Made by a program: the position numbers and the translations under genes. Positions 8,754 through 11,352 of a stretch of DNA of 36,771 bases are shown here, in pieces (within the stretch, counting starts at the first letter, position 1; every line of letters begins with the position of its first letter). Under the pieces are notes generated by a model. It had not been told where the DNA came from, did no database searches, and saw only the letters and a program-made list of their open reading frames with translations. The stretch is from Vulcanimicrobiota bacterium (GTDB lineage Bacteria; Vulcanimicrobiota; Vulcanimicrobiia; Vulcanimicrobiales; Vulcanimicrobiaceae): positions 1-36,771 of the forward strand of contig DAHUYK010000059.1 of the NCBI GenBank assembly GCA_027315245.1, in the 5' to 3' direction.

Positions 8754-8948
8754 ATGGACTCAGAGCGCGATGAGTATCATCCGGACTTCGGCCAGCTCCC
8801 GAAGAGCAAAGGCGTCCCACGCGGACTCTTGATCACCGTCGGCATCGGGCTCGTCATGATCTTTCTTATCGCCGCCGGCGTCGTGCTGCTCTCCGGGTAC
8901 GGCCACATGTGGCCGTCGATGACGACCCTACGCGAACACGTGAAGTAG
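8754..8948 (+). CDS. Small single-helix membrane protein of the cox operon
   Basis: This 64-residue protein begins with a charged cytosolic stretch (DSERDEYHPDFGQLPKSKG), then one membrane helix at about residues 25-47, then a short tail ending in MTTLREHVK. It starts one base after the previous stop, so it is very likely co-translated with it. No family is recognised. By location it is the last gene of the oxidase operon and may be a small structural or assembly subunit. A long inverted repeat begins about 12 bases after its stop. Confidence 0.72.
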   Translation: MDSERDEYHPDFGQLPKSKGVPRGLLITVGIGLVMIFLIAAGVVLLSGYGHMWPSMTTLREHVK

Positions 8949-8959
8949 AAGTGGGTCCA

Positions 8960-9113
8960 GCGTAGGCTGGGGCCGTGCTCTCGTGGTTCGAGGGGCGTGT
9001 GAATGCGCCGCGGAGACAGGACGTCGGGAGCGGCGCAGAGGCGAGCGAGCCGAGCGCACGACGCGCGAGGCGAGCGTCCCCGAAAACCACGAGAGCACGG
9101 CCCCAGACTATGT
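8960..9113 (+). ncRNA. Long inverted-repeat element, candidate structured RNA
   Basis: Two perfect 22-base arms, 8967-8988 and 9085-9106, enclose 96 bases. As plus-strand RNA the helix continues outwards after one mismatch by six pairs (8960-8965 with 9108-9113, two of them G-U). Inwards it continues through a symmetric 3x3 loop (CGA opposite GAA, allowing tandem G-A pairs) into GGGG/CCCC (8992-8995 with 9078-9081). Inside lies a separate 8-bp hairpin, TGCGCCGC at 9004-9011 with GCGGCGCA at 9030-9037. The G-U pairs favour the plus strand. It sits between convergent genes, has no T-tract, and matches no RNA family I recognise. A MITE-like element is the main alternative. Confidence 0.5.
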
Positions 9114-9136: not shown

Positions 9137-9718
9137 CTAGTGGCGAGGCGCGATGCCGATGGTGAGCGGCGGCAGCTCCCCGTCAGGAAGCAGCCCCGTC
9201 GATTTGCCGTCGATCGTGTGGATTCCGGCGAAGGTCGAAAACTCGGCCATTGCGGGAATCGTGCACGCCGGATACGCTTTCTTTCCTCTGGCGCGCCATT
9301 CGCATGCTACGCTCTTATCCTCGAAGAGCACCGCGACGTACCCGCACTCTCCGGGCGCGGTCCCGTCGTCGGGCGGGCGGTACCTCACGTAGCCGTCGAC
9401 GACGTAGATCGGACGGCGCGTCTGCGCATAGGCGAGGATCGGCGCAGCCAATACCGCGATGAAGTAGCCTAAGAACGCGACCGCGCCGAGCGCGAAGATC
9501 GGCGCTACGGCGATGAGCGTGGCATCGCCCTTCACGTGGTGCGCGCGCCAGACGATGCCCCATGTGAAGAGGCTGAAGAAAACAAAGCCTGCGAGCGGTT
9601 CGATTGCGATCGCCATGCGTCCGGTGAGCCCACGCCACACGATGGTCCGCTCGCGGTGCGTCCAGGGACGCTTGGCGAGTTGGCGCGCACGCGGGTCGAG
9701 CTGCCGGGAGGGGCTCAT
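9137..9718 (-). CDS. Membrane protein of unknown function, last gene of heme A operon
   Basis: The 193-residue protein has two hydrophobic helices at about residues 38-60 and 68-95. Between them is a short loop (RAHHVKGDA), and a soluble C-terminal domain of about 100 residues follows, containing YVVDGYVRYRPPDDG and ECGYVAVLFEDKSVACEW. No family is recognised. The ATG at 9718 overlaps the TGA of the upstream aidB-like gene (ATGA), which settles the start and indicates coupling. The domain faces the cytosol if the N-terminus does. A role beside heme A synthesis is suggested only by position. Confidence 0.75.
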   Translation of the reverse strand: MSPSRQLDPRARQLAKRPWTHRERTIVWRGLTGRMAIAIEPLAGFVFFSLFTWGIVWRAHHVKGDATLIAVAPIFALGAVAFLGYFIAVLAAPILAYAQTRRPIYVVDGYVRYRPPDDGTAPGECGYVAVLFEDKSVACEWRARGKKAYPACTIPAMAEFSTFAGIHTIDGKSTGLLPDGELPPLTIGIAPRH

Positions 9719-11352
9719 GCCGAGACTGCCTGTGTGTGGGGGGATGCGCGCGCAACGAGTTCGTTGAGCGCGCAATGCGCCGGCAGCGTGCCGAGCGCGC
9801 GGCCGGCCTCATCGGCTATGCGCGAGCGAAGAAACGCATCGGAGACGAACGCGGGCGCGTGCTGCAGCAAGAGCGCTGCCTGCCAAAGCATCGCGGCGCG
9901 CTCGGCAACGAAGCGCGCTCGCGCTTCGAGTGCGTCGCCGTCGGCGAGTGCCGCGTCGAACTCGGCGGCGGCGCGGGCAATCCGAGGTTCGGCAAGCGCG
10001 GCGCTCCACTGCGCGCGCAGCGCAGCGAGAGCCTCCGGCTGTTTGCGAAGAATGCGCAGGACGTCGAGCGCGTTGATATTTCCCGCACCTTCCCAGATCG
10101 AGTTGAGCGGCGATTCGCGGTAGAGACGAGGCAGGATCGACGTCTCGACGTACCCGTTGCCGCCGAGGCACTCCAATGCTTCGCCGACGAGCACCGGTGC
10201 ACGCTTGCAGACCCAATACTTTCCGAGCGCCGTGCCGATGCGCCGAAGCAGCGCGTCATCGTCGTCCACGGTTCGCGCGACGCGAAGCGCGAGCCACGTC
10301 GCAGCCTCCGATTCGAGCGCGATGTCGGCTAAGACGTTGCGCATGAGCGGCTGATCGGCGAGCAACGCGCCGAACGCCCGGCGGTGCCGCGCGTGGTGTA
10401 CCGCTTGCGCGAGTGCTTGCCGCACCAGGGCTGCCGACCCGATCATACAATCGAGGCGCGTGTGATTGACCATCTCCACGATTGCCGATAGGCCCCGCCC
10501 TTCTTCGCCGACGAGCAGGCCTTGGGTGTCGTGGAGTTCGATCTCCGCCGACGCGTTGCTGCGATTGCCGAGCTTATCTTTGAGTCGTACGATGCGAAAC
10601 GGATTGTGCGTTCCGTCGTCGAGCACACGCGGTACGAGAAAACACGACAGGCCGCGCGGCGCTTGCGCGAGCACGAGGAACGCATCGGAGGCAGGCGCCG
10701 AGCAGAACCACTTGTGCCCGTCGAGCAGATAGCGTTCGGCGGGGCCCCCGCCTGCGCACGGAATGGCGCGCGTCGCGTTCGCGCGCACGTCGGAGCCCCC
10801 TTGCCGTTCGGTCATACCCATGCCGCAGAGTGCCGCGTGCTTGCGCGCAATCGGCTCGAGCGCAGGCTCGTACGCGCGCGCGGTGAACCGAGGTTCCCAC
10901 AGCCGCGCGAGGTCAGGCTGGACACGAAGCGACGCGACCGCCGCATAGGTCATCGATATGGGACAGCCGTGCCCCGACTCCACTTGAGACCAAACGTAGA
11001 ACTTTACCGCACGCCGCAGGTGCGGAACCGGGGCCTGATCGTTCCAGGCAGTGCCATGGAGACCGAACGAGGTCGCATACTCGAGAAGGCGATGCCACGC
11101 CGGATGAAATCGCACTTCGTCGATCTGTTCGCCGTTTGCATCGTAAGCGCGCAACTGCGGTGGGTTCTCGTTCGCGTCAAACCCGAGTGCGATCGCATTC
11201 GCGCTGCCCGCGATCGTGCCGATGTCGTCGAGTTCGCCGGACGATGCTTGCGGTGCAACGGCGGAGAGCGCATCACAAAGCGGACGGTCGCTACGAAAGA
11301 GATTGACGCCTTCGAGCGGCGGCACCTGATTCGTCTCCTCGCGCCTCACCAT
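9715..11352 (-). CDS. aidB: AidB-like acyl-CoA dehydrogenase
   Basis: The 545-residue flavoprotein resembles E. coli AidB along its length. Landmarks are EGVNLFRSDRPLCDA near the start, EVRFHPAWHRLLE, GCPISMTYAAV, the GMGMTERQGGSDVRANATRA active-region motif, GHKWFCSAP, then VRLKDKLGNRSNASAEIEL and the late PRLYRESPLNSIWEGAGNI. AidB belongs to the acyl-CoA dehydrogenase superfamily, is induced by alkylation or acid stress in E. coli and binds DNA; whether this protein has an enzymatic role is unknown. The ATG at 11352 lies 35 bp after the exporter gene. The same frame stays open far upstream, but those residues are antisense to the exporter. Confidence 0.9.
   Translation of the reverse strand: MVRREETNQVPPLEGVNLFRSDRPLCDALSAVAPQASSGELDDIGTIAGSANAIALGFDANENPPQLRAYDANGEQIDEVRFHPAWHRLLEYATSFGLHGTAWNDQAPVPHLRRAVKFYVWSQVESGHGCPISMTYAAVASLRVQPDLARLWEPRFTARAYEPALEPIARKHAALCGMGMTERQGGSDVRANATRAIPCAGGGPAERYLLDGHKWFCSAPASDAFLVLAQAPRGLSCFLVPRVLDDGTHNPFRIVRLKDKLGNRSNASAEIELHDTQGLLVGEEGRGLSAIVEMVNHTRLDCMIGSAALVRQALAQAVHHARHRRAFGALLADQPLMRNVLADIALESEAATWLALRVARTVDDDDALLRRIGTALGKYWVCKRAPVLVGEALECLGGNGYVETSILPRLYRESPLNSIWEGAGNINALDVLRILRKQPEALAALRAQWSAALAEPRIARAAAEFDAALADGDALEARARFVAERAAMLWQAALLLQHAPAFVSDAFLRSRIADEAGRALGTLPAHCALNELVARASPHTQAVSA

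Follow-up and report, generated by a model that had tools for sequence, protein, structure and literature searches.

A dispersed structured element at gene ends in Eremiobacterota, probably a divergent relative of TwoAYGGAY RNA

What is the long inverted repeat that separates a cytochrome oxidase operon from a convergent gene in this DNA? The element lies at 8960-9113 of the window (the whole stretch of DNA analysed, 36,771 nucleotides), downstream of COX2, COX1 and COX3 genes assigned by Pfam and opposite an ORF on the − strand, 9137-9775, that has no Pfam match. The preliminary description, made from the letters of the sequence, had asked whether it was a structured RNA or a mobile element. 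Here we report that this choice was a false one, as the data support both.

The arms had been described exactly. Positions 8967-8988 and 9085-9106 pair perfectly over 22 bp across a spacer of 96 bases, the longest inverted repeat in the window at spacers up to 150 and far beyond chance (median 12 bp and maximum 16 bp in 100 first-order Markov windows of the same composition). Outside the single mismatch 8966/9107 the stem continues as claimed for six further pairs, out to 8960/9113; two of these pair as G-U, and do so on the + strand alone. The reported lack of a T-tract is also borne out, and with a spacer of 96 bases the element does not qualify as an intrinsic terminator. Coordinates of all features are collected in Table 1.

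Table 1. Features of the element and of its surroundings in the window
Feature	Position	Strand	Remarks
Stop codon TAG, last small ORF of cytochrome oxidase operon	8946..8948	+	upstream neighbour
Closing stem, 5' arm	8960..8988	+	22 bp without mismatch (8967-8988) plus six outer pairs ending at 8960; sequence differs between copies
Core, conserved (96 positions in models R1 and R2)	8990..9085	+	105.8 bits (R1), 95.0 bits (R2); family alignment A5
P2, 5' strand GGGG	8992..8995	+	partner 9078-9081; covaries in 105 copies
P3 hairpin	9004..9037	+	stem 9004-9011/9030-9037; purine-rich internal loop GGA/GGGA
P4 hairpin	9045..9075	+	tandem GA/GA internal loops 9047-9048/9072-9073 and 9052-9053/9067-9068
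P2, 3' strand CCCC	9078..9081	+	
Closing stem, 3' arm	9085..9113	+	outer end 23 nt from opposite-strand ORF stop codon
Stop codon of convergent ORF 9137-9775 (−)	9137..9139	−	

The folding energy of the element is −113 kcal/mol on the + strand (z −8.3) and −98.9 kcal/mol on the − strand (z −7.9). Inside the closing stem we found the 3x3 loop with its possible tandem G-A pairs and, beyond it, the GGGG/CCCC helix (P2), both as first described. The 8-bp inner hairpin of that description is present as P3, but a second inner hairpin, P4, had been missed, and its presence makes the element a three-way junction. In the window copy the P3 tip reads GAC-AGGAC-GUC and carries GGA in its loop (9018-9022), and the P4 tip loop is ACGAC (9058-9062), without GGA. 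The proposed outline resemblance to 6S-like RNAs does not survive, since the architecture is that of a two-hairpin junction and the window copy has no match in Rfam, 6S families included, even at E<=10.

The element belongs to a large family. The same genome holds another copy, on contig 14, with a core that is 88% identical; its arms are unrelated and yet pair into a stem longer than 30 bp. Copies were found by DNA search in 17 of 60 relatives. A covariance model built from seven core sequences detected them in 71 of the 99 family genomes scanned, at up to about 20 copies each, and a second model, built on 105 copies, recovered the 96-nt core in 85 of the 149 genomes searched from the phylum Eremiobacterota. 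Beyond that phylum, MAGs labelled Planctomicrobium, Candidatus Kuenenia and Krumholzibacteriia contain 27, 68 and 8 copies, respectively, and two labelled Deltaproteobacteria contain weaker ones; MAG labels can be wrong, and the genes on a sampled "Kuenenia" contig seem planctomycete. The arms of Eremiobacterota copies are copy-specific and mostly unique (partly shared in one genome, G096), unlike those of the planctomycete MAG G149, which are largely common to its copies.

Within this family the core fold is under selection, and its covariation is overwhelming. Across 105 Eremiobacterota copies, standard pairs fill 93% of pair cells, double changes occur in 23 of 24 pairs, and the covariation score is 0.583, compared with 0.146 after shuffling and at most 0.082 in slid controls. 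In a second alignment, whose 56 copies are mainly from planctomycete or Krumholzibacteriia MAGs, the score is 0.534 against 0.127 shuffled; it was fitted to the model from the first set and so leans towards structure, but the margin is very wide.

The arms, which pair over about 26 bp on average, are constrained as well. Their mismatches comprise 117 G-T and 40 A-C oppositions (p 6e-10) in an alignment that gave G-T no credit, and this excess points to the + strand of the window as the selected strand. Among ten orthologous pairs, some of which align poorly, the arms show 18 double changes from one Watson-Crick pair to another, 13 changes between Watson-Crick and G-U pairs, and 13 single changes that break a pair. 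Some double changes could result from hairpin-templated correction, which would not readily account for the strand bias. The ratio of G-T to A-C is 43:7 where the downstream gene lies on the same strand and 68:30 where it lies on the opposite one (Fisher p 0.03); this stronger bias beside same-strand genes weakly suggests that both strands can be transcribed and constrained. The compensatory stem changes that were to be sought in related genomes are thus present in core and orthologous arms, and together with the one-strand bias of G-U over A-C they support the idea of a structured RNA. The element is very likely real, functionally constrained, dispersed and structured.

Comparison with known RNAs points to TwoAYGGAY (RF01731), which Rfam places with CsrB in clan CL00106. 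Four Krumholzibacteriia copies match this family at full length, all below its gathering cut-off of 43 bits; scores of 40.2 (the best of any relative), 37.6 and 31.5 bits were obtained for Krumholzibacteriia copies across its full 168 positions. No match above the cut-off occurs in any of 12 genomes searched with RF01731, and its only four matches at E<=0.1 across genome G150 had all been found already by the family covariance model. The earlier statement that no known family motif could be recognised must therefore be qualified with regard to relatives, which match TwoAYGGAY below its cut-off. Other Rfam matches (miRNA, plant SRP and similar) were dismissed as matches that long hairpins give by chance.

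A 2010 report presented TwoAYGGAY as a probable RNA and listed it from the human gut, gamma-Proteobacteria and Clostridiales (Weinberg 2010, PMC2864571); its tandem G-A pairs and poorly conserved external stem are noted in PMC4333381, where binding to CsrA is proposed. The present elements share its two hairpins on a short common stem within an extended outer stem of low conservation, its tandem G-A pairs and loops of the AYGGAY type. They differ in that the window copy and other Eremiobacterota copies do not score against RF01731, in loops that are often AGGAU or ACGAU, in the phyla concerned, and in copy number, which reaches tens per genome with arms specific to each copy. The window loops, AGGAC and ACGAC, are not a double AYGGAY, and full AYGGAY loops occur in only some relatives, such as L015 and L302. 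Because both this strict loop pair and a score above the RF01731 cut-off are lacking, we do not file the element as TwoAYGGAY and call it a divergent relative, a kinship that we consider probable. To our knowledge, TwoAYGGAY has been an RNA of unknown function since 2010; our observations suggest that poorly studied phyla harbour its architecture as a large family of dispersed copies.

Based on these observations, we suggest that 8960-9113 is one copy of a set of dispersed structured elements of about 150 nt, divergent relatives of TwoAYGGAY, which would spread non-autonomously or be homogenised and would settle beside stop codons. Transcription, mainly of the strand read here as +, would produce the fold; a long clamp of unconstrained sequence would hold the three-way junction and present two hairpin loops, usually CAGGAUG or CAUGGAUG. 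Binding of a CsrA-type protein by these loops would be the most likely action, with scattered copies either titrating CsrA or marking and protecting RNA 3' ends. A divergent TwoAYGGAY-like mobile RNA element, its GGA loops possibly presented to CsrA, is our preferred explanation, and we hold our belief in it to be evenly balanced. Against it stand the missing Rfam match of the window copy and the failure of every copy to pass the RF01731 cut-off, the gaps in the P4 loop GGA, a CsrA distribution that does not follow that of the element, the antisense orientation of most copies to the nearest gene's 3' end, the lack of a promoter signal and the lack of a mobiliser among those sought.

The loops bear on the proposed role of CsrA. 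GGA is found in the P3 loop of 103 of 105 copies, the window copy among them, and in the P4 loop of 68, the window copy being one of the 37 that lack it there. The commonest P3 loop, CAGGAUG, may be viewed beside the CsrB repeats CAGGA(U/A/C)G and the CsrA SELEX consensus RUACARGGAUGU (PMC7652899). CsrA is encoded in this genome (G000:C113:2758-2904, E 3e-19) and in 81 of 99 genomes of the family. Its presence shows no association with that of the element (p 0.35), so co-occurrence was discarded as support, and 12 element-bearing genomes, several of them incomplete, show no CsrA. Binding of CsrA by the element is plausible, if tentative. We think it rather unlikely that the full proposal holds, namely a transposing CsrA-binding RNA, mobile and shared by several phyla, that plants CsrA-binding structures, each with its own clamp sequence, at dozens of gene ends; if it did, the sponge of a global regulator would itself be a family of dispersed repeats, with arms built anew at every site.

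A natural comparison group free of the element is offered by genus g24 of the same family, in which none of ten sampled genomes (G081-G089 and G030) carries it and most encode CsrA. The idea of a CsrA sponge is directly testable, as is the question of how a palindrome replaces its sequence while retaining its pairing, because the copies covary strongly, have a well-defined place in the genome and can be compared between genomes that carry or lack them.

The habitat is the ends of genes, as placed by approximate gene calls from a simple ORF and codon-usage script. In about half of the copies the 3' arm adjoins the stop codon of a gene on the opposite strand, a minority adjoin the stop of a same-strand gene, and most are antisense to the 3' end of the nearest gene. 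The closest analogues in habitat are the REP/REPIN/BIME repeats (GTAG and CGTC classes, PMC3733652), which are likewise interspersed, at gene 3' ends and in convergent gaps, and often in opposed pairs. The element could accordingly be viewed as a REP/BIME-like palindrome with no role for CsrA, acting as a hairpin to block read-through, protect mRNA 3' ends or bind nucleoid or gyrase proteins. Copies beside stop codons, between convergent genes and paired in opposite orientation agree with this, as described for REPs in PMC3733652, where REP dimers also occur inside long palindromes and one REP class has no dedicated transposase. However, REPs are units of 20-40 bp with a GTAG or CGTC tag, and the alignments here show no conserved terminal tag and a far more elaborate core of about 96 nt, with conserved loops and junction, set between arms that vary by copy. 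Y1/RAYT transposases occur in only 4 of 99 genomes, and the antisense orientation of most copies also speaks against a REP-like role. We regard such a palindrome as a serious possibility, though an unlikely one.

The preferred reading, a TwoAYGGAY-like RNA that is also mobile, draws on the distribution of filled and empty sites. Five congeners have no copy at the window site; where their convergent genes can be traced, the stops are separated by a few tens of bases without a hairpin. The same place is filled in a genome of another genus (copy L052 of G032). In G101, two oppositely oriented copies occupy a site that measures 48 and 27 bp in two relatives, and orthologous places are reused by copies across genera, sometimes inverted. 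Core identity is 0.64-0.88 within a genome, 0.60 for random pairs between genomes and mostly 0.51-0.66 at sites shared across genera. Simple vertical inheritance at shared sites was rejected, since cores there are as unlike as random pairs; together with the empty congener sites, this indicates that copies are repeatedly gained or homogenised. We conclude that the element is probably mobile or repeatedly homogenised. The mobile-element option of the preliminary description is upheld by the many copies per genome, the empty sites and the within-genome similarity, but the copies are not near-identical, their arms are mostly unique, and no target-site duplication was shown at the empty sites, which are too diverged to reveal one.

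Several routes of spread were considered and rejected. RAYT/IS200 mobilisation is opposed by the rarity of PF01797 (Y1), which is absent from this genome (G000), and reverse transcriptase (PF00078) occurs in 11 of 99 genomes without tracking the element. About 370 kb of loci contain few long hairpins without the core, and no empty site has one, making insertion into ready-made hairpins unlikely. A search for free copies of the G096 arm end returned arm-like matches flanking cores, and two inspected exceptions were not element arms. By blastn the window element has no match in phages or plasmids and a planctomycete copy none in plasmids; motif matches in IMG/VR were not elements by the covariance model.

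Mobility could also be the whole of the matter. The element would then be a selfish miniature one of no function to the host, and its structure would serve nothing but transposition in the form of folded single-stranded DNA. Insertion polymorphism with empty sites, similarity within genomes, the reuse of hot spots and inverted orientations at one locus are all in keeping with this, and like the bacterial MITEs RUP, NEMIS and ERIC the element is a 150-bp non-coding insert with terminal inverted arms, present or absent between relatives. Unlike them, it has arms that are mostly not common to copies, no parent insertion sequence and no demonstrated target duplication, and neither Y1 transposase nor reverse transcriptase tracks its copies. 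Moreover, the arms, though mostly unique to an insertion, have a strand bias in their G-T pairs and show compensatory changes between orthologs, which points to selection or conversion after insertion. We find a purely selfish element improbable. That the element is an independent antisense ncRNA regulating the convergent gene from its own promoter is very improbable, as its frequent position against an opposite stop codon is offset by neighbour genes that are unrelated from one site to another and by the lack of any positional promoter-like signal upstream of copies, for which reason such a promoter was rejected.

Besides the TwoAYGGAY-like element proposed here, individual loci show some further arrangements. 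Insertions recur at the 3' end of nuoD (L002, L022, L074, L118), as full copies in three genomes, one of them inverted, and as half an element in a fourth. Divergent pairs with facing 5' arms recur (L061, L089, L112, L154, L201, L207, L281, L288, L290 and L291); in the L089 pair, two convergent genes each have one copy beside their stop codon. In G098, two same-orientation copies with identical cores lie 161 bp apart (L105:2478-2737) and are a tandem duplication that takes in part of the arms. An internally deleted element is seen at L090:4599-4673, a hairpin with 32-bp arms, 16 nt from a gene end, whose loop has lost all of the core but its 3' end (GCCGGGCGTCCCCGCG). Another interspersed palindromic repeat, unrelated to this family, is common beside elements in several Eremiobacterota genomes (CCCTTCGACAAGCTCAGGGTGACA and variants; L062, L083, L096 and L121). 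In genus g46 (L071-L080, L100, L118), an arm G-T pair recurs at a fixed position about 9 pairs from the core, with 5' ACGT opposite 3' ATGT.
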